A stretch of DNA of 30,051 bases. It comes from a virus. This document shows, in pieces, positions 13,169-27,861 of the stretch. The first letter of the stretch is position 1. Each line of letters starts with the position of its first letter. Below the pieces are notes generated by a model, which was given only the letters and a program-made list of their open reading frames with translations, made no database searches and had not been told where the DNA came from. A program made the position numbers and the translations under genes. Where the stretch lies: IMG/VR virus record IMGVR_UViG_3300046819_000092, positions 1 through 30,051 of that record, one strand, 5' to 3'.

Positions 13169-13663
13169 ATGTTGACGCAAGAAAGAGTTAAAGAATTATT
13201 TACCTATGACCCAAGTACTGGAAATTTGTATAGAAATATAAAAGCTGGTAAGAGTAAAGTTGGGGATATAGCTGGGAGTTTAGATACTAAATCTGGGTAT
13301 TTAAAACTTACAGTTGACTATAAACAAACCTCAAATCATAGAGTAATTTGGTTATATATTTATGGACATATCCCAAACTATATAGACCATATAAACGGTG
13401 ATAGAAAAGATAACAGATTACAGAATTTAAGAGAAGTATCTGTAACCGAGAATAATAGGAATAAAAGTATTTCTAAAAATAATAAATCTGGGCAGAACGG
13501 TGTATCTTTTGATGCTTCTAGGAATAAATGGATAGCTGCTATAAATTTTAAAGAAGGTCTTAAACATTTAGGACGTTTTGAAACTTTAGAAGAAGCTATA
13601 AAAGTTAGGCAACAAGCAGAGATTAAATACGGATTCCATGAAAATCATGGTCGAATAATTTAA
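13169..13663 (+). CDS. Free-standing HNH homing endonuclease with AP2-type DNA-binding domain
   Basis: Probable selfish endonuclease that nicks or cuts DNA at an allele lacking it. 164 residues. The HNH part (about 50-95) shows H-R-V-I-W, Y-I-D-H-I-N-G-D-R-K-D-N-R and L-R-E-V-S-V-T-E-N-N-R-N, with the expected His and Asn metal/catalytic residues. The C-terminal AP2-like DNA-binding segment (about 107-160) reads S-G-Q-N-G-V-S-F ... W-I-A-A-I-N-F, H-L-G-R-F-E-T-L-E-E-A. GGTG lies upstream of the ATG. It takes the slot where lambda has FI/FII, between capsid and Z, and does not interrupt any gene. It is a mobile element-type insertion and not part of the virion. Confidence 0.9.
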   Translation: MLTQERVKELFTYDPSTGNLYRNIKAGKSKVGDIAGSLDTKSGYLKLTVDYKQTSNHRVIWLYIYGHIPNYIDHINGDRKDNRLQNLREVSVTENNRNKSISKNNKSGQNGVSFDASRNKWIAAINFKEGLKHLGRFETLEEAIKVRQQAEIKYGFHENHGRII

Positions 13664-15093: not shown

Positions 15094-15246
15094 ATGGCTA
15101 GTGGCTATTATGGTGGTGGCAGCAACTACAAAGAAGAACCAGATACTAAGATTGGTTTAGAAAATGAAGTAGCTGTTCAAGTAGAACAAGTAATTGAACA
15201 AAAACCTGTAGTGGACTCTACAGCAACTAAAGAGGTAACAGAATAA
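15094..15246 (+). CDS. Small acidic protein upstream of the tail tube gene, 50 aa
   Basis: A 50-residue reading frame with GAGG at 15085-15088, six bases before its ATG, and a stop codon overlapping the tube gene start (TAATG). The 14-nt gap to the terminator gene and this overlap make translation very likely. The N-terminus is Gly/Tyr/Ser-rich (ASGYYGGGSNYKEEP), the rest acidic and Val/Glu-rich (EVAVQVEQVIEQKPVV), probably unstructured or a short helix. No homologue is recognised. Coupling to the tube gene suggests an assembly helper, or simply a leader that sets tube translation. Confidence 0.68.
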   Translation: MASGYYGGGSNYKEEPDTKIGLENEVAVQVEQVIEQKPVVDSTATKEVTE

Positions 15247-16532
15247 TGGCCTATGTAAAATTCCATGAAAAGAATATAGCTTTATTAGCAACTAAAGAAG
15301 TAACTGAAGGTACTTATGTAGCGCCTGTAGGTACTGATGCTGTTGCTGCTACCGCTATTGACGGTGGTATTACACGCGAAACCAATGCTATCACTTTTAT
15401 CGGTGATTCTCTATTCCGTGAAGAAACTACTTATCTAAAAGACGAATATGGTGATATTAATTTAAATACACCACAACAAGTATTAGGCGCTTTAAGTGGC
15501 TCTTTAGCTGCTGATGCGGCTCCTTTCTCAGAACTTTATCAAGCTTGTGGCGGTGCAGTTTCTGTATTCACAGCTGCTGTAGGTTCTTATCCTGCTGGTA
15601 CAGTTATTGTTGATAATAACAGTACAAGTAACTCTACGATTTCTATTGACATTCGCAAATCATCTCCAGATGATGCGGCTAATGATAAGTTAGTTAAGAT
15701 GTTAGGTTGTCGTGGTATGGTGGATTTGACAGCTAACATCAGCGAAGTACCTTCTTTAAAGTTTAACTTCAAAGGTGCTTTTACTGACCCAGCTACTGTA
15801 ACTCGCGTTATCCCTGATTTCGTAAATCAAACATCACAGTTAGCTGCTGCTATTAGAAAAGAAACCATCGTATCTGCTTTAGTAGCTCCTATGACTGGTA
15901 CTTTTACAGCTACAACTGGTGGTACACTCTCATTAGCTGGTACTATTGGTAAGAAATTAGCTACTTTGTCTGCAAGTACTGCATTGACTCCAGCATTAAC
16001 AGGTTCTGTTGCTGGTGATATTCGCTTTATCACAGTTGCAGGTGCTTCTGACGCTGCTTATAACGGTACTTTCTTAGCTACCATCATTGGCACAGGTACT
16101 GGCGCAGTATTACATTACCAAACTAAAGTTGCTATTGCTAGTGCGGCTCCTACAGGTACTATTACTTTAACAGTAGGCCCAATTGCTAAAACCTTCTCTT
16201 ATGGTAACTGCTCAGCTCCTAACTTCTTTGGTTTTGATTTGACCCGTTATTTAACAGGTGCTGAAGAAGGTTTTGCTAAAGGTGCAACTCCTACTGATGT
16301 TACTGTTACCATGCTAGAAGATAAAGCAGGTACTACTAACTTTGACCCAGAAGCTAACATCGAACAGTTCTTTGGCGTTAAGATTAAATTTGGTACTGCC
16401 GCAGGTAAATACATCAGCTATGTATGGGATAGATTAGAACTTACCAATACTAAAGATACCAAAATCGGTACTTACTTTGGTAAAGACGTATCTATGAGAA
16501 ATACAGGCAAAAGCTATATCATTTTCGAGTAA
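15246..16532 (+). CDS. V: Major tail tube protein (V-like), enlarged
   Basis: Polymerises into the tail tube around the tape measure. 428 residues, against 246 in lambda V. The N-terminal part (about 1-205) and C-terminal part (about 310-428, including I-E-Q-F-F-G-V-K-I-K-F-G and Y-V-W-D-R-L-E-L) form the tube-type beta fold. Between them, about 205-310 is an Ala/Thr/Gly-rich insertion (for example TGTFTATTGGTLSLAGT) that looks like an added surface beta domain. AGAGG lies inside the preceding small gene, and the start overlaps its stop. Codons include many CGN for Arg, as in the capsid gene. A rho-independent terminator follows, as expected for a highly expressed gene. Confidence 0.85.
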   Translation: MAYVKFHEKNIALLATKEVTEGTYVAPVGTDAVAATAIDGGITRETNAITFIGDSLFREETTYLKDEYGDINLNTPQQVLGALSGSLAADAAPFSELYQACGGAVSVFTAAVGSYPAGTVIVDNNSTSNSTISIDIRKSSPDDAANDKLVKMLGCRGMVDLTANISEVPSLKFNFKGAFTDPATVTRVIPDFVNQTSQLAAAIRKETIVSALVAPMTGTFTATTGGTLSLAGTIGKKLATLSASTALTPALTGSVAGDIRFITVAGASDAAYNGTFLATIIGTGTGAVLHYQTKVAIASAAPTGTITLTVGPIAKTFSYGNCSAPNFFGFDLTRYLTGAEEGFAKGATPTDVTVTMLEDKAGTTNFDPEANIEQFFGVKIKFGTAAGKYISYVWDRLELTNTKDTKIGTYFGKDVSMRNTGKSYIIFE

Positions 16533-16541
16533 TCTCCCTTC

Positions 16542-16577
16542 GGGAAGGTTGGAACACCACCAATCTTCCCTCTTTTT
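16542..16577 (+). terminator. Rho-independent terminator after the tail tube gene
   Basis: GGGAAGGTTGG (16542-16552) pairs with CCAATCTTCCC (16560-16570; one G-U pair), 7-nt loop, followed by TCTTTTT (16571-16577). It sits between the tube gene and the chaperone genes and would lower expression of the latter. An alternative short hairpin, TCCC-TTC-GGGA (16535-16545), uses bases of the left arm and could compete with it. Confidence 0.88.
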
Positions 16578-16597: not shown

Positions 16598-17062
16598 ATG
16601 GCTGTAAAATTATTTATTAAACTTCAAACTCCTACTATTGAACTTAAAGTATCTGCTAAAGATGCTGCTGGTAATAAAGACTCATTCACAGTAGGTTTCA
16701 AACGCTATGACTTAGCAACTGCTCAAGGTAAATTAGAGCAATTACAGAATATCTTTGAATCTGTTTCAAAAGAAACTACTTTAGATTCTAAAGAATTGAA
16801 TACCTTTATCAAGAATGAAATTGTGTTCTTGAAACAAATTAAACTGGATTTAGAAGACGAAAACGGCAACTCTAAAGAGTTATCTGTTGCAGACACTAGA
16901 ACAGTTAAACCGAATGAAAGTCTGTGGGAGACAGCAGATGAATGTCTAGCCGTCCTCCTAGATATGTATCTGGGTTCTGCTCCTTACAGACTTTCTCTAA
17001 TTACTGCCTTACAGAAAGCTTTACTGAATAGCGATTATAGTGAAGCAGAAGTAAAAAACTAA
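16598..17062 (+). CDS. G: Tail assembly chaperone G
   Basis: 154 residues (lambda G 140). Together with its frameshifted form it coats the tape measure and recruits tube protein; it is not in the virion. The N-terminus is beta-rich (KLFIKLQTPTIELKV), then a helical, acidic body, with L-A-V-L-L-D-M-Y-L-G-S-A-P-Y-R-L-S-L near 117-134. AGAGGA precedes the ATG. The reading frame ends at TAA immediately followed by TAG, directly after a slippery AAAAAAC. Position just before the tape measure and presence of the frameshift site identify it despite low sequence conservation in this family. Confidence 0.88.
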   Translation: MAVKLFIKLQTPTIELKVSAKDAAGNKDSFTVGFKRYDLATAQGKLEQLQNIFESVSKETTLDSKELNTFIKNEIVFLKQIKLDLEDENGNSKELSVADTRTVKPNESLWETADECLAVLLDMYLGSAPYRLSLITALQKALLNSDYSEAEVKN

Positions 17063-17445
17063 TAGAGGCTGGCGAGTACTTAGGAAAGATAGTTGAATTA
17101 GCAAAATATGAACAGGAAGTAGCAGATAGTAATGCAAAGGTAAGTTCTTTACTAGCTGCTTTTCCTGGACTTACACAAGATACTACTGAAGTTGAGGAAG
17201 AAATCCATGAAGAAGATGTTTTTTATCTCTGGGACACTAAAGAAGTTATCTTTAAGATTTACAAGATTGCTAGAAACTATCTATCTGAATACTATGCACT
17301 TGACTCAGCCATTCTTATAGAACTGATTAAAGAGAATAAAGTATCTATGGAAAGTGCTTTATCTGAAATACCGTATATTCATAGCGGATACCTTAACATT
17401 ATCTTAGAAGAGAAAGAAAATGGCAGAACAGATACTGAAAGTTAA
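16598..17445 (+). CDS. GT: GT tail assembly chaperone made by -1 programmed frameshift
   Basis: The G frame shifts back one base at 17053-17059 and continues from CTA at 17059 to TAA at 17443-17445, adding 128 residues to the 154 of G (282 in all). The T segment is open along its entire length, begins LIEAGEYLGKIVELA, and contains L-W-D-T-K-E-V-I-F-K-I-Y-K-I-A-R-N-Y and a helical acidic C-terminus. It has no good start of its own and fills what would otherwise be a 357-nt hole before the tape measure gene, which it overlaps by 26 nt. In lambda the T domain binds tube subunits. The shift is inferred from motif and reading frames. Confidence 0.88.
17053..17059 (+). promoter_or_regulatory. -1 frameshift slippery site A AAA AAC
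   Basis: The heptamer AAAAAAC fits X XXY YYZ in the G frame (codons GTA AAA AAC TAA). Both tRNAs can re-pair after slipping one base back. The zero-frame stop follows at once and is doubled (TAA TAG). No clear downstream stem-loop was found by eye. The sequence differs from the lambda G GGA AAG but is a canonical slippery heptamer. Confidence 0.88.
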
Positions 17446-20400
17446 ACTTGTTGCTGATGTGGGGCAATCTGAAGCGGCTTTAAAGCTGTTTACAGATTCG
17501 GCTAAAGATGCTGGAGTATCTATAGAAAAGGTCTTTAAAGCTGTTAATGTTGAAACAGATAAAATAGCTTATGATATTAAAGTAACTGCCGATGAACTGG
17601 ATAAGTTAGATAAAGCTTTTAAGTCTGCTAAAGCAAAATTCTCAGAAGACGAGACTACTAAGTTATCTAGTAGTTTCATTGAAGTTACTAAGAATATAGA
17701 TACTGAAGCTGCCAGAATTGCAAAAAGCCGTCAAAAAGGTTTTGAGGAAGACTTAGCTAAACGTACTACTAGGTTAAAAGAATCACTTAGCTTAGAACTA
17801 GCTTTAATCCGTGAAGGCGAAAATAGTATCACAGCTATTAAACTAGAGTCAGCTTCTAAACAAAGAAAACTTGAAGAAAAGTTACAAGAAGACCTAGCTG
17901 TCGTAAAGCAGAAGTTTATCGACCAAAATATAACTGCTGCTACTAAAAACACTTATATCAATAGACTATATGCTGATTATAAAGATGCTACAGTTAAGTT
18001 AAATGAATTAACTGATGAACGTATAGCTAAAGCAAACCAAGAAGTAGCAGACTTTAATCTAGTAGAGAAGAAACTTGCGGAAACTTCTGCTAGACGAGTA
18101 AAACTTGTAGAAGACAGAGAGAAAGCTTTAACTGATATTCAAATAGCTGCTGCAAAAAAGTCTCAGGAAGTCCAAAATGCTTTAATTAAGCAAACAGTAG
18201 ATTCTTTAATAATTACAGAGGATAAAGAGTATAAAAGACTTCTAGCTGCTAGAAAAGCTAATGCTGAAGCTGCTTTTGGTGTGGGCGCACCACAAGCAGG
18301 TAGAGATGATAGAGGTTATGTACCTTTTGCTATGGGTACTGTTGGGGCTAATAGAGCTGCTGCACAAGCACCTGCTGATGCTAGGGCGCAAACATTACAG
18401 GAAGCAGAAACTAGAGCTTTCTTAGCTAGAAGAGCTAAAGCTGAGAAAGAGTGGGCTGATAATTTTAATACTGTTGTGACTCCAGCTGTAGAAAACAATA
18501 CTAAAGGTTTAGAAAATAATAAAAAAGCCCTAGATGAGGTTAGTAAATCACATAAAAGCCTGCTAGGTCATATTACAGAGGTCTATGGAGCTTATCAATT
18601 AGTTAATACTGCTGTAGGTACTTTTAAACAATTTTTACTTGATATACCTAAAGCTGGTATTCAACAAGAGCAAACACAAGCAACTCTTTTTGCTATCTTT
18701 GGCTCTAAAGAAGGTTATAAAAATATAGAGTTCTTAAAAGACCTTAGTAAGAGCGCAGGCCAATATATAGGTGACTTGCAAGAAGCTTATACTAGATTCG
18801 CACCTTCAGCGGTACTAGCAGGAGCTACTCAAGGAGAAGTTAATAAAGTATTTAAAGACTTTACAGAAACTTCTACTGTATTGCATTTAGGGACTGACCA
18901 AGTTAAATCTCTTTACTTAGCTTTAGAGCAGATGTATGCTAAAACTACTGTACAATCTGAAGAGATTAAGAAACAGTTAGGTAACGTACTTCCCGGTGCT
19001 GTAGAAGTAGGTGCTAAAGCTTGGGAAAACTATATAAATAAAGGAAAAGAAGGAGCAGCTAGAACTAAATTATCTGTAGCAGAATTTATGGATGCTATGA
19101 GTAAAAATTTAGTTATAGCTAGACAATTTATTCCAGAATTTTCCAAAGCTTATAGAGATACTTTTGGTGGCCCAGATGATTCAGTCTTTGAAGATACTAG
19201 AACAAAATTATTATCTAATTTACAAAGAATTAGAAGTACTTATTTTGAACTGACAGATGAAATATACAAAAGAACGTCATCAACTTTAAACGATATAGTT
19301 AAATTAGGGGCTGAAGCTTTAGAAACAATACAGAAGAATGCTACTGGAGTTCTACAAGCTATCGAAATCCTATCTGTAGCGGTAGCAGCTAGACTAAGTG
19401 TTGCTTTAGCTGTAAATTTAGCAGCTAATCTTAGTAAAGTAACAGTTCTTTTAACTGGTATGTCGGCTGGTATGCTAAGTGTAGCTACTGCCGCTGTAAC
19501 TGCCGCTGTATCAGTAGCTAATCTAAGTATTAAATATGAAGAAGCTAGAGGTATTTTAGTAGACTATAATAATGAAACAGCCTCTATTACCTCTACTTTA
19601 AGTGTAGTTTTATCTGATGTTAAAACACTATTAACAAGTTACTTAGAAACTTATAAAGGTTTTGGTGCTGATTTCTTAAAAGCTATTTTACCAGACCCTG
19701 TTAAAGCTGTAGGTGACTTCTTTAGACAATATGTACCTCTTACTTTGGGGTATTTGAAAGCCACTAAACAAGCTTTTACAGAAGAAGGCTTAACTGTAAA
19801 TCTTGGTTTAACTGCTAATCAATTTGCTAAAGAGTATGCAGCTCAGTTTGACGCTTACGGTTCTAGTGTAGTTACAAGAGCTGTCGAGAAAGATATTTCT
19901 AAAGTAAAAGAGTATGTAAAAGGTAAACCTGTTTATGAAATAGGTAAAGAGATAAGCGCACAATTAGCTGCTGGTTTGAAATTATCTAGTTCAGATATTA
20001 CTGAAATGCTTAATAGTGGTTTAGAGATAGGAGCTACTGATAAAGGCGGTTCGGGAGAAGATTTAAAGAAAAATGCAGAGAAGAATAAAGCTTCTCTAAA
20101 AGAAACCTACAGAAGTGCTTTTGAAGAGATTAAAAATAGTTATAGCCAAATACAAGCTGACCTTACAGAAGCATTAGGAAGTATAGATATTCTATATCAG
20201 CAAAATGCTATGTCTATTGAGACTTACTTCTCCCAAAAGATGCAGTTACAGGAAACTGATTTAGCTGTTCAGAAAGAGATGTTAAATCAAGAGTTACAGT
20301 TAGCTTATGCTCAGAAAGATAAAGTTAAGATTCAAAAGTTAAATGGTGAGTTAATTAAAGCTGAAACTGATGCTAATAAACTTGCTACTAAAACTATTAT

Positions 20401-21571
20401 TGAAAAGACTAATGCTACTAGAGCATATCAAGCTATGGCTTTAGAAGGGCAAGCTAAAGTACTTGCTTTCCAAGGTAGAGGTGGTGAAGCTGCTTTAGGT
20501 CAATTTGATGTAGCTAATAGGGATAAGCTAGAAAAGTTTAAAATTGCCGGAGATACTGCTGCTCTTAGAAACTTAGAAATAGAAAGACAAAATGTTGCTT
20601 TGAAAGGTGCTATTGCCGATATAGATGAGAAAAGAACTTTACAAGAAGCTGACTATCAAGCCGCTTTAGAAAGAACTAACATTCTTAAAAATACAGGAGC
20701 TATAGGTGAGTTTACTGCCTTACAACAGATAACTGCCGCTAATGAAGCTAGAATAGCGTCTATGGAAGAAGCTGTTAGAGTTAAAGAACTTGAAATAGCT
20801 AAGACTGAGGAACTTGTTGGTATAGTAGACTTAAAAGAACGTAGCGCTTTAAAGAAACTAAGAGAAGAATTAGAGAATTTTAGACTTACATCGGATGCAG
20901 TAGCACAACATTTTGATAAAGTATTCTCAGATTCTTTTACTAATGCTTTTACAGGTTTTGCTAACGGTACTATGACTGCCCAACAAGCTTTCTCTAGTTT
21001 AATTACTTCTATGATTGGCGAAATTCAGAAGTTAATTGCTCAAGAAATGGCTAGTGCTGCTTTGAGAACTATTATCAGACCTTTAGCTAATTGGGCTATG
21101 GGTGGGATTGGTGATATGTTTAGTAGTGGTCAAAGTGCTGCATTTACAGATACTTTTTCTAAATCTGGAACAGACTTCTGGGGAGCTGGTGCTACTAAAA
21201 TATTACCTAATGCTAATGGCGGTGTATTCTCAGGCCCAGGTATCTCAGCTTACTCAGGTTCAATAGTATCTAAACCTACTATTTTCCCATTTGCTAAAGG
21301 TACTGGTTTAATGGGTGAGGATGGGCCAGAAGCTATTTTACCTTTGACCGCAAATTCTAAAGGTAAACTCGGTGTAGTTGCTGATATTACTGGACAATCG
21401 AGCGGTAATGTGTATAATATAGCAGTTACTGTTCAAAGTTCTAAGGACGAAAAGCCCGCAGATACAGGACAGAAAATTGCAGAAGCTATGATGAGAACTA
21501 TAGCTAAGCAAGAAATCGGATTAGCAGCTAGACCGGGCAACTCACTTAATAGAACTACTAAATTTGGATAA
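17420..21571 (+). CDS. H: Tape measure protein (H-like)
   Basis: Sets tail length and is ejected ahead of the DNA. 1383 residues, against 853 in lambda H; scaling with length suggests a tail near 200 nm. The first 340 residues are mainly charged coiled coil. Around 380-610 is a globular region with K-S-A-G-Q-Y-I-G-D-L-Q-E-A-Y-T-R-F-A-P-S. A hydrophobic, Ala/Val-rich region lies at about 644-700. A second long coiled coil follows (about 880-1190). The C-terminal part has the family mark G-L-M-G-E-D-G-P-E-A-I-L-P-L near 1293-1307. It overlaps the T segment by 26 nt and is four bases from M. Confidence 0.95.
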   Translation: MAEQILKVKLVADVGQSEAALKLFTDSAKDAGVSIEKVFKAVNVETDKIAYDIKVTADELDKLDKAFKSAKAKFSEDETTKLSSSFIEVTKNIDTEAARIAKSRQKGFEEDLAKRTTRLKESLSLELALIREGENSITAIKLESASKQRKLEEKLQEDLAVVKQKFIDQNITAATKNTYINRLYADYKDATVKLNELTDERIAKANQEVADFNLVEKKLAETSARRVKLVEDREKALTDIQIAAAKKSQEVQNALIKQTVDSLIITEDKEYKRLLAARKANAEAAFGVGAPQAGRDDRGYVPFAMGTVGANRAAAQAPADARAQTLQEAETRAFLARRAKAEKEWADNFNTVVTPAVENNTKGLENNKKALDEVSKSHKSLLGHITEVYGAYQLVNTAVGTFKQFLLDIPKAGIQQEQTQATLFAIFGSKEGYKNIEFLKDLSKSAGQYIGDLQEAYTRFAPSAVLAGATQGEVNKVFKDFTETSTVLHLGTDQVKSLYLALEQMYAKTTVQSEEIKKQLGNVLPGAVEVGAKAWENYINKGKEGAARTKLSVAEFMDAMSKNLVIARQFIPEFSKAYRDTFGGPDDSVFEDTRTKLLSNLQRIRSTYFELTDEIYKRTSSTLNDIVKLGAEALETIQKNATGVLQAIEILSVAVAARLSVALAVNLAANLSKVTVLLTGMSAGMLSVATAAVTAAVSVANLSIKYEEARGILVDYNNETASITSTLSVVLSDVKTLLTSYLETYKGFGADFLKAILPDPVKAVGDFFRQYVPLTLGYLKATKQAFTEEGLTVNLGLTANQFAKEYAAQFDAYGSSVVTRAVEKDISKVKEYVKGKPVYEIGKEISAQLAAGLKLSSSDITEMLNSGLEIGATDKGGSGEDLKKNAEKNKASLKETYRSAFEEIKNSYSQIQADLTEALGSIDILYQQNAMSIETYFSQKMQLQETDLAVQKEMLNQELQLAYAQKDKVKIQKLNGELIKAETDANKLATKTIIEKTNATRAYQAMALEGQAKVLAFQGRGGEAALGQFDVANRDKLEKFKIAGDTAALRNLEIERQNVALKGAIADIDEKRTLQEADYQAALERTNILKNTGAIGEFTALQQITAANEARIASMEEAVRVKELEIAKTEELVGIVDLKERSALKKLREELENFRLTSDAVAQHFDKVFSDSFTNAFTGFANGTMTAQQAFSSLITSMIGEIQKLIAQEMASAALRTIIRPLANWAMGGIGDMFSSGQSAAFTDTFSKSGTDFWGAGATKILPNANGGVFSGPGISAYSGSIVSKPTIFPFAKGTGLMGEDGPEAILPLTANSKGKLGVVADITGQSSGNVYNIAVTVQSSKDEKPADTGQKIAEAMMRTIAKQEIGLAARPGNSLNRTTKFG

Positions 21572-23760: not shown

Positions 23761-24346
23761 ACTAAATGTCGTTATTCTTTCAGGTGAAAATCCTGAGGTA
23801 TTTGAATTGTTTGCTTCTAATATAAAAGAAGTAGTTAGTTTGCTGCGCTTGCAGAAAGGTGATAGCTTTGCTGATGAGTTGTTAAATAATAACTATAAAT
23901 TTGTATTAGCTGACTCTACTAGGGAAGATAGTTTTGTAGCTTTAGTACCTGAAGTTGTGTTCTCTAGCTTTGAAGGGTTTGATTTATTATTTATTGTACC
24001 TGAGATTGAAGGTGAGGAGCCTGTTTCAATAGGTACTGCTATGGCTGTAGCTTTATCTAGCGCTGGTTTTGGTACTGCGGCTGGTTTTGTACTAACTTAT
24101 GCTGCTGTTTTTGGAACTGTAGCTTTAATGGCACTTAGTATCGGCCTTAATATGCTAATGTCTGCTTTGTCTCCTACTCCTGAATTCTCATCTGACCCTG
24201 CCGCACAGCAGAACAAATCTAATTTATTTAATGGCGCACCTATAGTAAGAAACCAAGGTGGTAGTGTACCACTTATATTTGGTAATCCTTACTGTGGTGC
24301 AGTACTTATTTCATCTGGTGCATTTACAGAAGAGGTTACAGCATAA
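23750..24346 (+). CDS. I: Tail assembly protein I
   Basis: 198 residues (lambda I 223); required for tip assembly, and in lambda not found in the finished virion. An N-terminal ubiquitin-like part (about 1-90) is followed by a Gly/Ala-rich hydrophobic segment (about 95-145, with S-S-A-G-F-G-T-A-A-G and A-L-S-I-G-L-N-M-L-M-S-A-L). A C-terminal segment N-L-F-N-G-A-P-I-V-R-N-Q-G-G-S-V-P-L-I-F-G completes it, as in other I family members. AAGG is about nine bases before the ATG. The gene overlaps both K and J (TAATG), the same order as in lambda. Confidence 0.9.
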   Translation: MSAKLNVVILSGENPEVFELFASNIKEVVSLLRLQKGDSFADELLNNNYKFVLADSTREDSFVALVPEVVFSSFEGFDLLFIVPEIEGEEPVSIGTAMAVALSSAGFGTAAGFVLTYAAVFGTVALMALSIGLNMLMSALSPTPEFSSDPAAQQNKSNLFNGAPIVRNQGGSVPLIFGNPYCGAVLISSGAFTEEVTA

Positions 24347-27300
24347 TGGAAAACTTACCAGTAATTTATGGTGAAATGGGTGGTGGTAAAGGTGGTGGTG
24401 GACATACTCCTGTAGAAGCTGCTGATACTTTATCCTCTAAACAGACAATGAGACTATTATTTGCCTTATCTGAAGGACAGATAGATAGTGTAGAGGATAT
24501 TCTAGTAAATAGTGCAAGTATTAGTAATTATAGTTCTACCATAGACTATGAGGTTAGAACTGGTACAGTTGACCAGAATGTTATTAAAGGTTTCTCTGAG
24601 GTAGAGGCTCCTTTAACTGGTGGTGGCGCATTTCCTGTTGAGTTAAAAGCTGGTATTCAGCATATCTATTCACTTTTAGGTATGTATGATGCGGCTAGAA
24701 TTAACCTAACTATTCCTAGATTGATGCAAGTAACCGGAGAAGGAGACCGAGTAGGTTACTCAGTTACTCTATCTGTTTATAAAAGACACCAACCATTTGG
24801 CGGTAGTCCAGGAAGTTGGCAATTAGCTAGTACTATTACTAAGAATGGTAAATGTACTAATCCTTATTCATGGGATGTAAGATTAGAAAAGCCAGCTACT
24901 ACCGGAGAACTAGATTCTTGGGGCATTATGATTGTCCGAGATTCTGCTGATGATGCTGATGATAAGCATTATAGCACTACAGCTTTATCTGCTATAACTA
25001 CTATAGTTGAATCTAGTTTAACATATCCACATACAGCTTTAGTTGGTGTTACTTTAAAGGATGCTGCTCAGTTTGGTGGTTCAATTCCTGAAATTAAGTT
25101 CAAAGTTAAAGGTATTAAATTACCTTTGCCAGTTAATTATGACCCAACTACTAGAGCTTATACTGGCGTATGGAACGGTGCATTTAAGTCAGTTAGAGAA
25201 TACACTGATAACTTAGCTTGGGTAACTTATTGGGTTCTACGAGAACATGGTTCTACTTTCTTAGACTCTGAATGGGGTTTAGAGATTGCTGCTAGTGATA
25301 TTGATGTAGGTTCCTTTTATTTATATGCTCAGTACTGCGACCAATTAGTATCTGATGGTAAAGGCGGTCAAGAACCTAGATATACAGCGCACTTTCAGTT
25401 TATTGAAAGGGATAATGTTCCGACATTTTTAACCTATCTGTTGAACCTAGGTAATGCTAACTTCTCCTCTAATAGTCTAGGTCAGATTTCAATTATCTGG
25501 GATGGCGCAGGTCAAAGCATTACTAAAGTGGTATCTAATGCTACTGTAGTTGATGGTGTTTTCGAGTACTCATCTAATGACCTAGAAGGTAGAACTAATC
25601 TAGTCAATGTAACCTATGCTAGAGAAGAACTATTTGGTGATAGTGATACTGCTACTCATTATGAACAGACTTTAATTGATAGATATGGCTTGCAAACCTC
25701 TGACGTAGTATTGTTTGGTTGTAAAAGTGAAGCACAAGCTTTGAGAAAGGCTAGAGCGGTTCTTTATAACAACTGCTATGCTACTGATTTAGTTACTTTT
25801 AGACAATTGTTCCAAGGTGCTACTTATCAAATTGGTGAGTTAGTTTCTGTTATGGACAGTGATAATGTCGTAACTGACCCTAAACATGGGATAATTACTG
25901 GCAGTTCGCTTTCAGCTGGCACTACAACGCTGACTTTAGACCGTTCAATAGTTTTAACTAATGCTAGTTATACTATTCAGTTTATCGGTAATGATGGAAC
26001 TACGTTCTTATCGAAAGCAATTACACAAACTAATGGCTCATTCTCTAGTGTTAGTTATACTGGAAGTGAGATACCTTTTGTTGGCGGTACTGTGTTGTTC
26101 TCAACTACAGCTTTAACTCCTAGGACAGTTAAAGTTATCAAGGTTGATAAGGATGATGAACACGTTTATACAATTACAGGGCTAACGCATAATGAATCTA
26201 AGTATAGTTATATTGAGAATGTAGGTTCTATTGCTACGCCTTCTGGTAGTTTTATTAACTTTAATAACTTTACAGTTCCAGCTGTTAGTAACATTACAAT
26301 AGAAGAAGTGTTCTCGTCTAATGGTGTAGTTGAGTTCTCTAAACTAGCTGTTGACTGGGATTGGAATGTTAGTGGTACTGAGGACTATAGAGCTACTTTT
26401 GACGTTTCATATCGTAGAGATAATCAAGAGTATCAACAAGCTAGAAACTTAGGTACATCTGACTTCGACATTGAATACCCACTTCCAGGTGTCTATGAGA
26501 TTTATGTCTGGGCTGTTAATCCTTTTTCTGGACTACGTTCAGTTGTAACTAGTATTGTTTATAACTTTAGAACTGCTACTGCCGTTTCTACTTTGCTGCC
26601 GCCAACTAATGTAGTAGTTCCTAGTACTGCTGGCGTTGTATTTCAGCAAAGAGATTTGCCGCTGACTTGGACTTTTCCAGTTGCTAATGATACTAAGGTT
26701 GATAAACTTAAAGACTATGTGGTTCAGGTCTTAGACTACACTACCAGTACTGTTAAAGGCACTTATACAGTAGCCCCTAACACAGATAGAGGCGGTGATT
26801 TTCTACTTACTTTTGCTGAAAATGCTGCTATCTTTGGTACTGCTCAGAGACAGTTTAGAGTTAGAGTCTTTAGTAGAGATTTAATTGGTGACTTATCCAA
26901 TTATGTTGAGGTAGTGCCTAATAATAGTGTTCCTGCTGCTCAGACATTTACCATTTTAAATGGTGTAGGTTCTGTTTATATCCGAGTTACATCTTTAACT
27001 GAAATTGATGTTACTGGATTTAGGGTTTGGAGAGGTACGACTGCTGGTTTTACCAAGGATGATAGTTCCCTAGTCTATGACGGGGCTGACACTTATATTA
27101 CTCTTAATGTCCCAGACACTACTCCCTACTTCTACGCACTAGCTGCTTATGATAGTTTTGGTAAAACTGGGCTTAATATAGTTGAAGATGGTTCTAGTCA
27201 TACCACAGTAACTGTAGATGCTACACAGTATAGTTTTTCAGGTCTAGTATTTACACCAAATGACCCTACAGCTAATAAAGTTAGTTGGACTGCTGGTACA

Positions 27301-27861
27301 GTCAGTAAGAATAATGGAACCCCTAGTACTATAAATGCTGGGGCTACGCCAACTGCTTGGAGTTCAGGTACTATTTATATTTACTACCCAGGAACAGGAA
27401 CTTCACTTGTTGCAACCACAGATATAACTCTTGCTGTTACTGGTTCTATTGTAGTTGCAACTTATAGAGGTGGTACAGATGTAAATGTCGGCAATGGTAA
27501 GGCATTTATTGATGGAAGTAATCTTATAGCTGGTACTGTAGGCGCTAATCAGATAGCTGCTAATTCGATTAATTCTGGAAAGTTAGTTACTGATAGTGCT
27601 GTTATCACTACAGAAGCTCAAATGGGTTCTGCTACTGTTGGTAATGCTGCTATTAAGGATTATATTCAGAGTACTAACTTTAATAACACTACCAAACAAG
27701 GCTGGAAACTGGATAAAGCTGGTAATTTAACATCTTATGGTTCTGTAACTATTGCTAGTGCTGGTACTGGTACTGCTAGAATGGAGCAAAATGGAGATGT
27801 TATTAAAGTTTATGACAGTTCGGGTGTGTTGCGTGTTAAACTTGGTAATTTGAGCGCATAG
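24346..27861 (+). CDS. J: Central tail tip protein J (host specificity)
   Basis: Forms the trimeric hub and tip that contacts the receptor. 1171 residues (lambda J 1132). The N-terminus has the family mark K-G-G-G-G-H-T-P-V-E-A-A-D-T-L-S-S-K-Q followed by L-S-E-G-Q-I-D. Hub domains run to about 600, with F-R-Q-L-F-Q-G-A-T-Y-Q-I-G-E-L near 485. At least two FN3-like beta domains follow (about 640-900), and the C-terminal part includes A-N-Q-I-A-A-N-S-I-N-S-G-K-L and G-D-V-I-K-V-Y-D-S-S-G-V-L-R-V-K-L-G. The receptor-binding part cannot be specified. GAGG precedes the ATG in an overlap with I. Confidence 0.94.
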   Translation: MENLPVIYGEMGGGKGGGGHTPVEAADTLSSKQTMRLLFALSEGQIDSVEDILVNSASISNYSSTIDYEVRTGTVDQNVIKGFSEVEAPLTGGGAFPVELKAGIQHIYSLLGMYDAARINLTIPRLMQVTGEGDRVGYSVTLSVYKRHQPFGGSPGSWQLASTITKNGKCTNPYSWDVRLEKPATTGELDSWGIMIVRDSADDADDKHYSTTALSAITTIVESSLTYPHTALVGVTLKDAAQFGGSIPEIKFKVKGIKLPLPVNYDPTTRAYTGVWNGAFKSVREYTDNLAWVTYWVLREHGSTFLDSEWGLEIAASDIDVGSFYLYAQYCDQLVSDGKGGQEPRYTAHFQFIERDNVPTFLTYLLNLGNANFSSNSLGQISIIWDGAGQSITKVVSNATVVDGVFEYSSNDLEGRTNLVNVTYAREELFGDSDTATHYEQTLIDRYGLQTSDVVLFGCKSEAQALRKARAVLYNNCYATDLVTFRQLFQGATYQIGELVSVMDSDNVVTDPKHGIITGSSLSAGTTTLTLDRSIVLTNASYTIQFIGNDGTTFLSKAITQTNGSFSSVSYTGSEIPFVGGTVLFSTTALTPRTVKVIKVDKDDEHVYTITGLTHNESKYSYIENVGSIATPSGSFINFNNFTVPAVSNITIEEVFSSNGVVEFSKLAVDWDWNVSGTEDYRATFDVSYRRDNQEYQQARNLGTSDFDIEYPLPGVYEIYVWAVNPFSGLRSVVTSIVYNFRTATAVSTLLPPTNVVVPSTAGVVFQQRDLPLTWTFPVANDTKVDKLKDYVVQVLDYTTSTVKGTYTVAPNTDRGGDFLLTFAENAAIFGTAQRQFRVRVFSRDLIGDLSNYVEVVPNNSVPAAQTFTILNGVGSVYIRVTSLTEIDVTGFRVWRGTTAGFTKDDSSLVYDGADTYITLNVPDTTPYFYALAAYDSFGKTGLNIVEDGSSHTTVTVDATQYSFSGLVFTPNDPTANKVSWTAGTVSKNNGTPSTINAGATPTAWSSGTIYIYYPGTGTSLVATTDITLAVTGSIVVATYRGGTDVNVGNGKAFIDGSNLIAGTVGANQIAANSINSGKLVTDSAVITTEAQMGSATVGNAAIKDYIQSTNFNNTTKQGWKLDKAGNLTSYGSVTIASAGTGTARMEQNGDVIKVYDSSGVLRVKLGNLSA

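Follow-up and report, generated by a model that had tools for sequence, protein, structure and literature searches.

Organization of the G/T junction

The window, by which we mean the whole 30,051-nt stretch analyzed here (IMG/VR virus record IMGVR_UViG_3300046819_000092), carries a series of tail genes, all on the + strand. The 428-residue product of 15246–16532 is, by position only, the likely major tail (tube) protein; it had no family match in PHROGs or Pfam, and its gene adjoins gene G in relatives too. Between the two genes lies a hairpin resembling an intrinsic terminator (16542–16570). Gene G (16598–17062; ATG at 16598, TAA at 17060–17062) encodes 154 residues and is, by position, a putative tail assembly chaperone gene. 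A gap of 357 nt separates its stop codon from the ATG at 17420 of the tape measure gene (17420–21571), whose 1383-residue product matched a PHROG tape measure family (E 5e-33) and PF20155, TMP_3 (E 4.5e-14). Elsewhere in the window, the major head protein and Neck1-like genes are separated by an inserted HNH endonuclease ORF (13169–13663), and a gpJ-like tip protein (24346–27861) gave a weak match, below the cut-off, to the peptidoglycan amidase domain Amidase_5.

The last zero-frame codons of G read GTA AAA AAC TAA TAG, with the heptamer A_AAA_AAC at 17053–17059 and the zero-frame stops TAA TAG directly 3' of it at 17060–17065. After a slip of one base backwards, CTA (17059–17061) becomes the first codon of a second open frame that continues ATA GAG GCT, runs for 128 residues plus a stop codon (the T segment, 17059–17445), and extends 26 nt into the tape measure gene. 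G plus T would give a GT protein of 282 residues, spanning 16598–17445. These coordinates agree exactly with those of a first-pass annotation of the window, which had proposed a programmed -1 frameshift whose GT product ORF calling would miss and had observed that the gap before the tape measure gene would otherwise go unexplained; the comparisons below support both the shift and the missed product. The heptamer has the X_XXY_YYZ form of programmed -1 sites, is in phase, and falls within the overlap of both frames: a TGA in the -1 frame at 17041–17043 and the zero-frame TAA at 17060–17062 restrict any passage from the zero frame into the -1 frame to 17044–17059. In the window's other genes tested, A_AAA_AAC occurred in frame at none of 6734 codon positions. 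The tape measure gene is strongly variable, with ~55–93% identity and losses of segments in relatives whose G and T are 95–99% identical.

Conservation of the heptamer and of the second frame

Four proteins, namely G, T, the tape measure protein, and the major head protein, served as queries in scans of IMG/VR for relatives. The resulting set comprised 28 sequences (the window, 26 contigs, and locus L136), with one locus per contig and ten lineages including that of the window. The IMG/VR relatives were of two kinds, near-identical contigs and diverged contigs; the latter were 40–52% identical to the window in T and 44–66% in G (44–99% for all G relatives). In INPHARED, neither a DNA search nor searches with the window's G, its T, and an approximate consensus-like T query detected a relative, and a search of GTDB contigs, by which a host might have been assigned, returned none. 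Several lines of comparative evidence indicate that a -1 frameshift very probably takes place at A_AAA_AAC, and come close to making it certain.

First, all 28 sequences (the window and 27 further contigs) carried AAAAAAC where G meets T, in identical phase, the heptamer and both frames being kept in diverged relatives; T in the -1 frame opened with KKL in each and had 124–134 residues where measured. Homopolymers are error-prone, which would favor an origin of the two frames in an assembly or sequencing error, or alternatively in a fused gene that has decayed, but recurrence of the same junction in 27 contigs, many metagenomes, and ten lineages, together with purifying selection on T, refutes such an origin, which we regard as hardly conceivable. 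Second, dN/dS in the T frame was 0.13/0.71, 0.13/0.63, and 0.15/0.67 in comparisons between relatives of ~81–87% identity, corresponding to a ratio of ~0.2, and the other two frames of the region displayed the reversed pattern. These values indicate that the -1 frame, and only this frame, is under purifying selection. Third, given the G proteins and the codon use of each lineage, the probability that all three third positions of the heptamer match by chance was ~10^-12.8, a rough value because it treats as independent lineages that share descent. All ten lineages had C as the last base of the heptamer, even though they encode asparagine more often by AAT (AAC, 17–44%). Eight lineages could change this C to T without altering either protein, yet all eight kept it (P ~10^-4.6, again rough given shared descent), which suggests that the slip site itself requires this base. 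Finally, across the 28 sequences the -1 frame was closed by a stop 3–12 nt upstream of the heptamer, and the zero frame by one at +7 or +10, so that any change of frame is confined to at most ~22 nt holding the heptamer. Site, phase, selected second frame, and confinement of the shift can each be read from the aligned sequences.

The same GT fusion could arise by transcriptional slippage, with RNA polymerase adding one A to the A6 run in some transcripts. Such a run is present, and its slippage product would be nearly identical to GT; six A residues are, however, short for polymerase slippage, and no relative had more or fewer than six, the base before the run being T or C. Moreover, phase and the final C were both conserved, and homopolymer slippage needs neither. 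We consider transcriptional slippage very improbable. Less probable still is expression of T as a separate gene through coupled reinitiation, ribosomes that finish G starting anew at a non-standard codon such as the ATA at 17062, which sits in the T frame just past the G stop. This ATA was replaced by GAA in L108 and by ACA in L105, and reinitiation leaves conservation of the heptamer unexplained. The first-pass annotation had held that T lacks a credible start codon, and this view survives comparison: the sole ATG, GTG, or TTG in the window's T frame is an ATG at 17347, close to the end of T, these codons were missing from the early part of T in most lineages, and no usable start was conserved.

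A further suggestion of that annotation, that the double stop sharpens the ratio of G to GT, found no support. Both TAA and TAG were present in 21 of the 28 sequences and one of them was missing in the other seven (TAACAG, TAGAAG, TCATAG, TTATAG); the doublet appears because the T-frame codons CTA ATA G read that way in the zero frame. What is conserved is a nearby zero-frame stop rather than a double one, with at least one such stop within two codons of the heptamer in all 28.

In our judgment, with a probability of roughly 0.93, the locus is best explained as encoding a two-product tail assembly chaperone by -1 ribosomal slippage on A_AAA_AAC. We infer an event on the ribosome, at a rate such that most ribosomes would translate G and end at the TAA at 17060. 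In a minority, tRNA-Lys on AAA and tRNA-Asn on AAC would slip back one base and re-pair on AAA AAA; these ribosomes would resume at the CTA at 17059 and reach 17445, completing the 282-residue GT. By analogy with phage lambda, many copies of G and few of GT may coat the tape measure protein, with GT recruiting the tail tube subunit.

Relation to known tail assembly chaperones

The gpG/gpGT system of phage lambda resembles this locus in gene order (tail tube, G, T, tape measure), in protein sizes, in a -1 frameshift near the end of G, and in a T that overlaps the tape measure gene (PMC5009743). As the first-pass annotation had pointed out, the heptamer differs, being A_AAA_AAC here and G_GGA_AAG in lambda; in the window, the site also stands directly before the G stop. 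The comparison of T with lambda gpT proposed in that annotation was run by hhalign and found no similarity, and the same held for G; the lambda families PF06894 and PF06223 gave no Pfam match and an hhalign probability of ~0.1%.

In Acinetobacter phage Loki (gp12/gp13) and its relatives (Septimatrevirus, Nipunavirus, and others), AAAAAAC lies directly before the gp12 stop, as it does here, and an A_AAA_AAC shift was proposed for Loki and for Acinetobacter phage IME_AB3 (PMC5313236); AAAAAAC beside a stop codon is thus already described. The Loki T opens KKLIEV and the window-type T KKLIEA, and the chaperone gene is preceded by a terminator there and by the terminator-like hairpin here, whereas the Loki group has an extra Neck1/HK97-gp10-like gene between T and the tape measure gene. 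By hhalign, G and T of Loki had no profile-level homology to those of the window, and Loki-like chaperones (phrog_313, phrog_8233, PF23812) had no sequence similarity to G or T. Among eleven Loki-type phages, AAAAAAC with a stop directly behind it was present in seven (L148, L158, L149, L150, L151, L153, L156), a single codon separated AAAAAAC from the stop in an eighth, Vibrio phage 1.268.B (L157), and GGGAAAC occupied the same place in the remaining three (L152, L154, L155). Exchange of one heptamer for the other suits ribosomal slippage and not slippage on a homopolymer, which tells further against an RNA polymerase origin of GT. Many of the Loki-type genes at this place are annotated as tail chaperones. 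The deposited annotations of JG012 (L150), PAE1 (L152), Kharn (L155), and Vibrio phage 1.268.B miss the frameshifted chaperone product, and the T region of these four phages is a short ORF or unlisted, although one of the two heptamers, AAAAAAC or GGGAAAC, closes G.

Salmonella phage Siskin (Chivirus) has related head genes (major capsid protein ~27% identity), the same arrangement, and an annotated frameshifted tape measure chaperone pair preceded by a terminator; its chaperone showed no similarity to that of the window by hhalign. Annotated terminators of Loki and Siskin fall at the place of the window's hairpin, and placing a terminator before the chaperone gene may be a general means of keeping chaperone below tail protein in amount. 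A_AAA_AAC is also given as the G-T shift site in g-t of the haloarchaeal tailed virus HCTV-2 (PMC5009743, citing Sencilo et al. 2013), an archaeal virus. The same -1 heptamer serves in bacterial insertion sequences, where the gene encodes a transposase and not a tail protein (PMC4066793).

Searches of PHROGs, Pfam, and PDB sequences with G and T returned nothing convincing, and a match of T to the GroES family (E 0.0065, three of 15 members) was treated as chance. The structure model of G (pLDDT 82.8) weakly resembled annotated tape measure chaperones in BFVD by Foldseek, namely those of Serratia phage Scapp (probability 0.89, E 0.045) and Klebsiella phage Solomon (probability 0.84, E 0.28), both of which are predicted structures; the T model was too poor for a fold search. 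Comparison of G with YqbN (3klu) gave a Z of only 2.8 with an rmsd of 9.6, and PDB fold matches of G to chalcone isomerase-like proteins (Z ~4) were taken as chance. Position and size are in keeping with a chaperone pair of the lambda type, a short G and a frameshifted T between the tail gene assigned by position and the tape measure gene. A chaperone function is suggested by this arrangement of tail protein gene, terminator-like hairpin, G, frameshifted T, and tape measure gene. We use "GT" as a name for role and layout, and not for descent shared with lambda as shown by sequence.

Strength of the site and implications

We found no conserved downstream RNA structure (z 0.12; no consensus pairs) with tools that fold pseudoknot-free structures. 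A Shine-Dalgarno-like element upstream of the heptamer was strong in six of ten lineages and absent in the window, and is not general. Stimulators of these two types are frequent at -1 sites without being obligatory. A_AAA_AAC shifts frame efficiently in mammals but poorly in E. coli (PMC5009743, PMC4066793). These results on stimulators, the weakness of the heptamer in E. coli, and the lack of homology of G and T to known chaperones count against the explanation given above; bacterial insertion sequences shift -1 at A_AAA_AAC, proven without an established stimulator (PMC4066793). A more speculative reading, which we hold to be less likely than not, is that a lineage of bacterial phages with a chaperone family not yet in databases relies on a heptamer of low activity in E. 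coli, seemingly with no conserved RNA stimulator; the rate of shifting would then depend on the heptamer, the stop beside it, and the host's pool of tRNA-Asn and tRNA-Lys.

The frameshift is well supported but ordinary, of a kind widespread among phages, and the protein family of G and T is one that the searched databases do not recognize. On our reading, a sequence-unrelated family joins the phages that use a G/GT frameshift, with A_AAA_AAC in place of the lambda heptamer, and GT at 16598–17445 would be a missing annotation for a group of uncultured phages. These results support the view that what is conserved among tail assembly chaperones is the shift and not the sequence of the protein.
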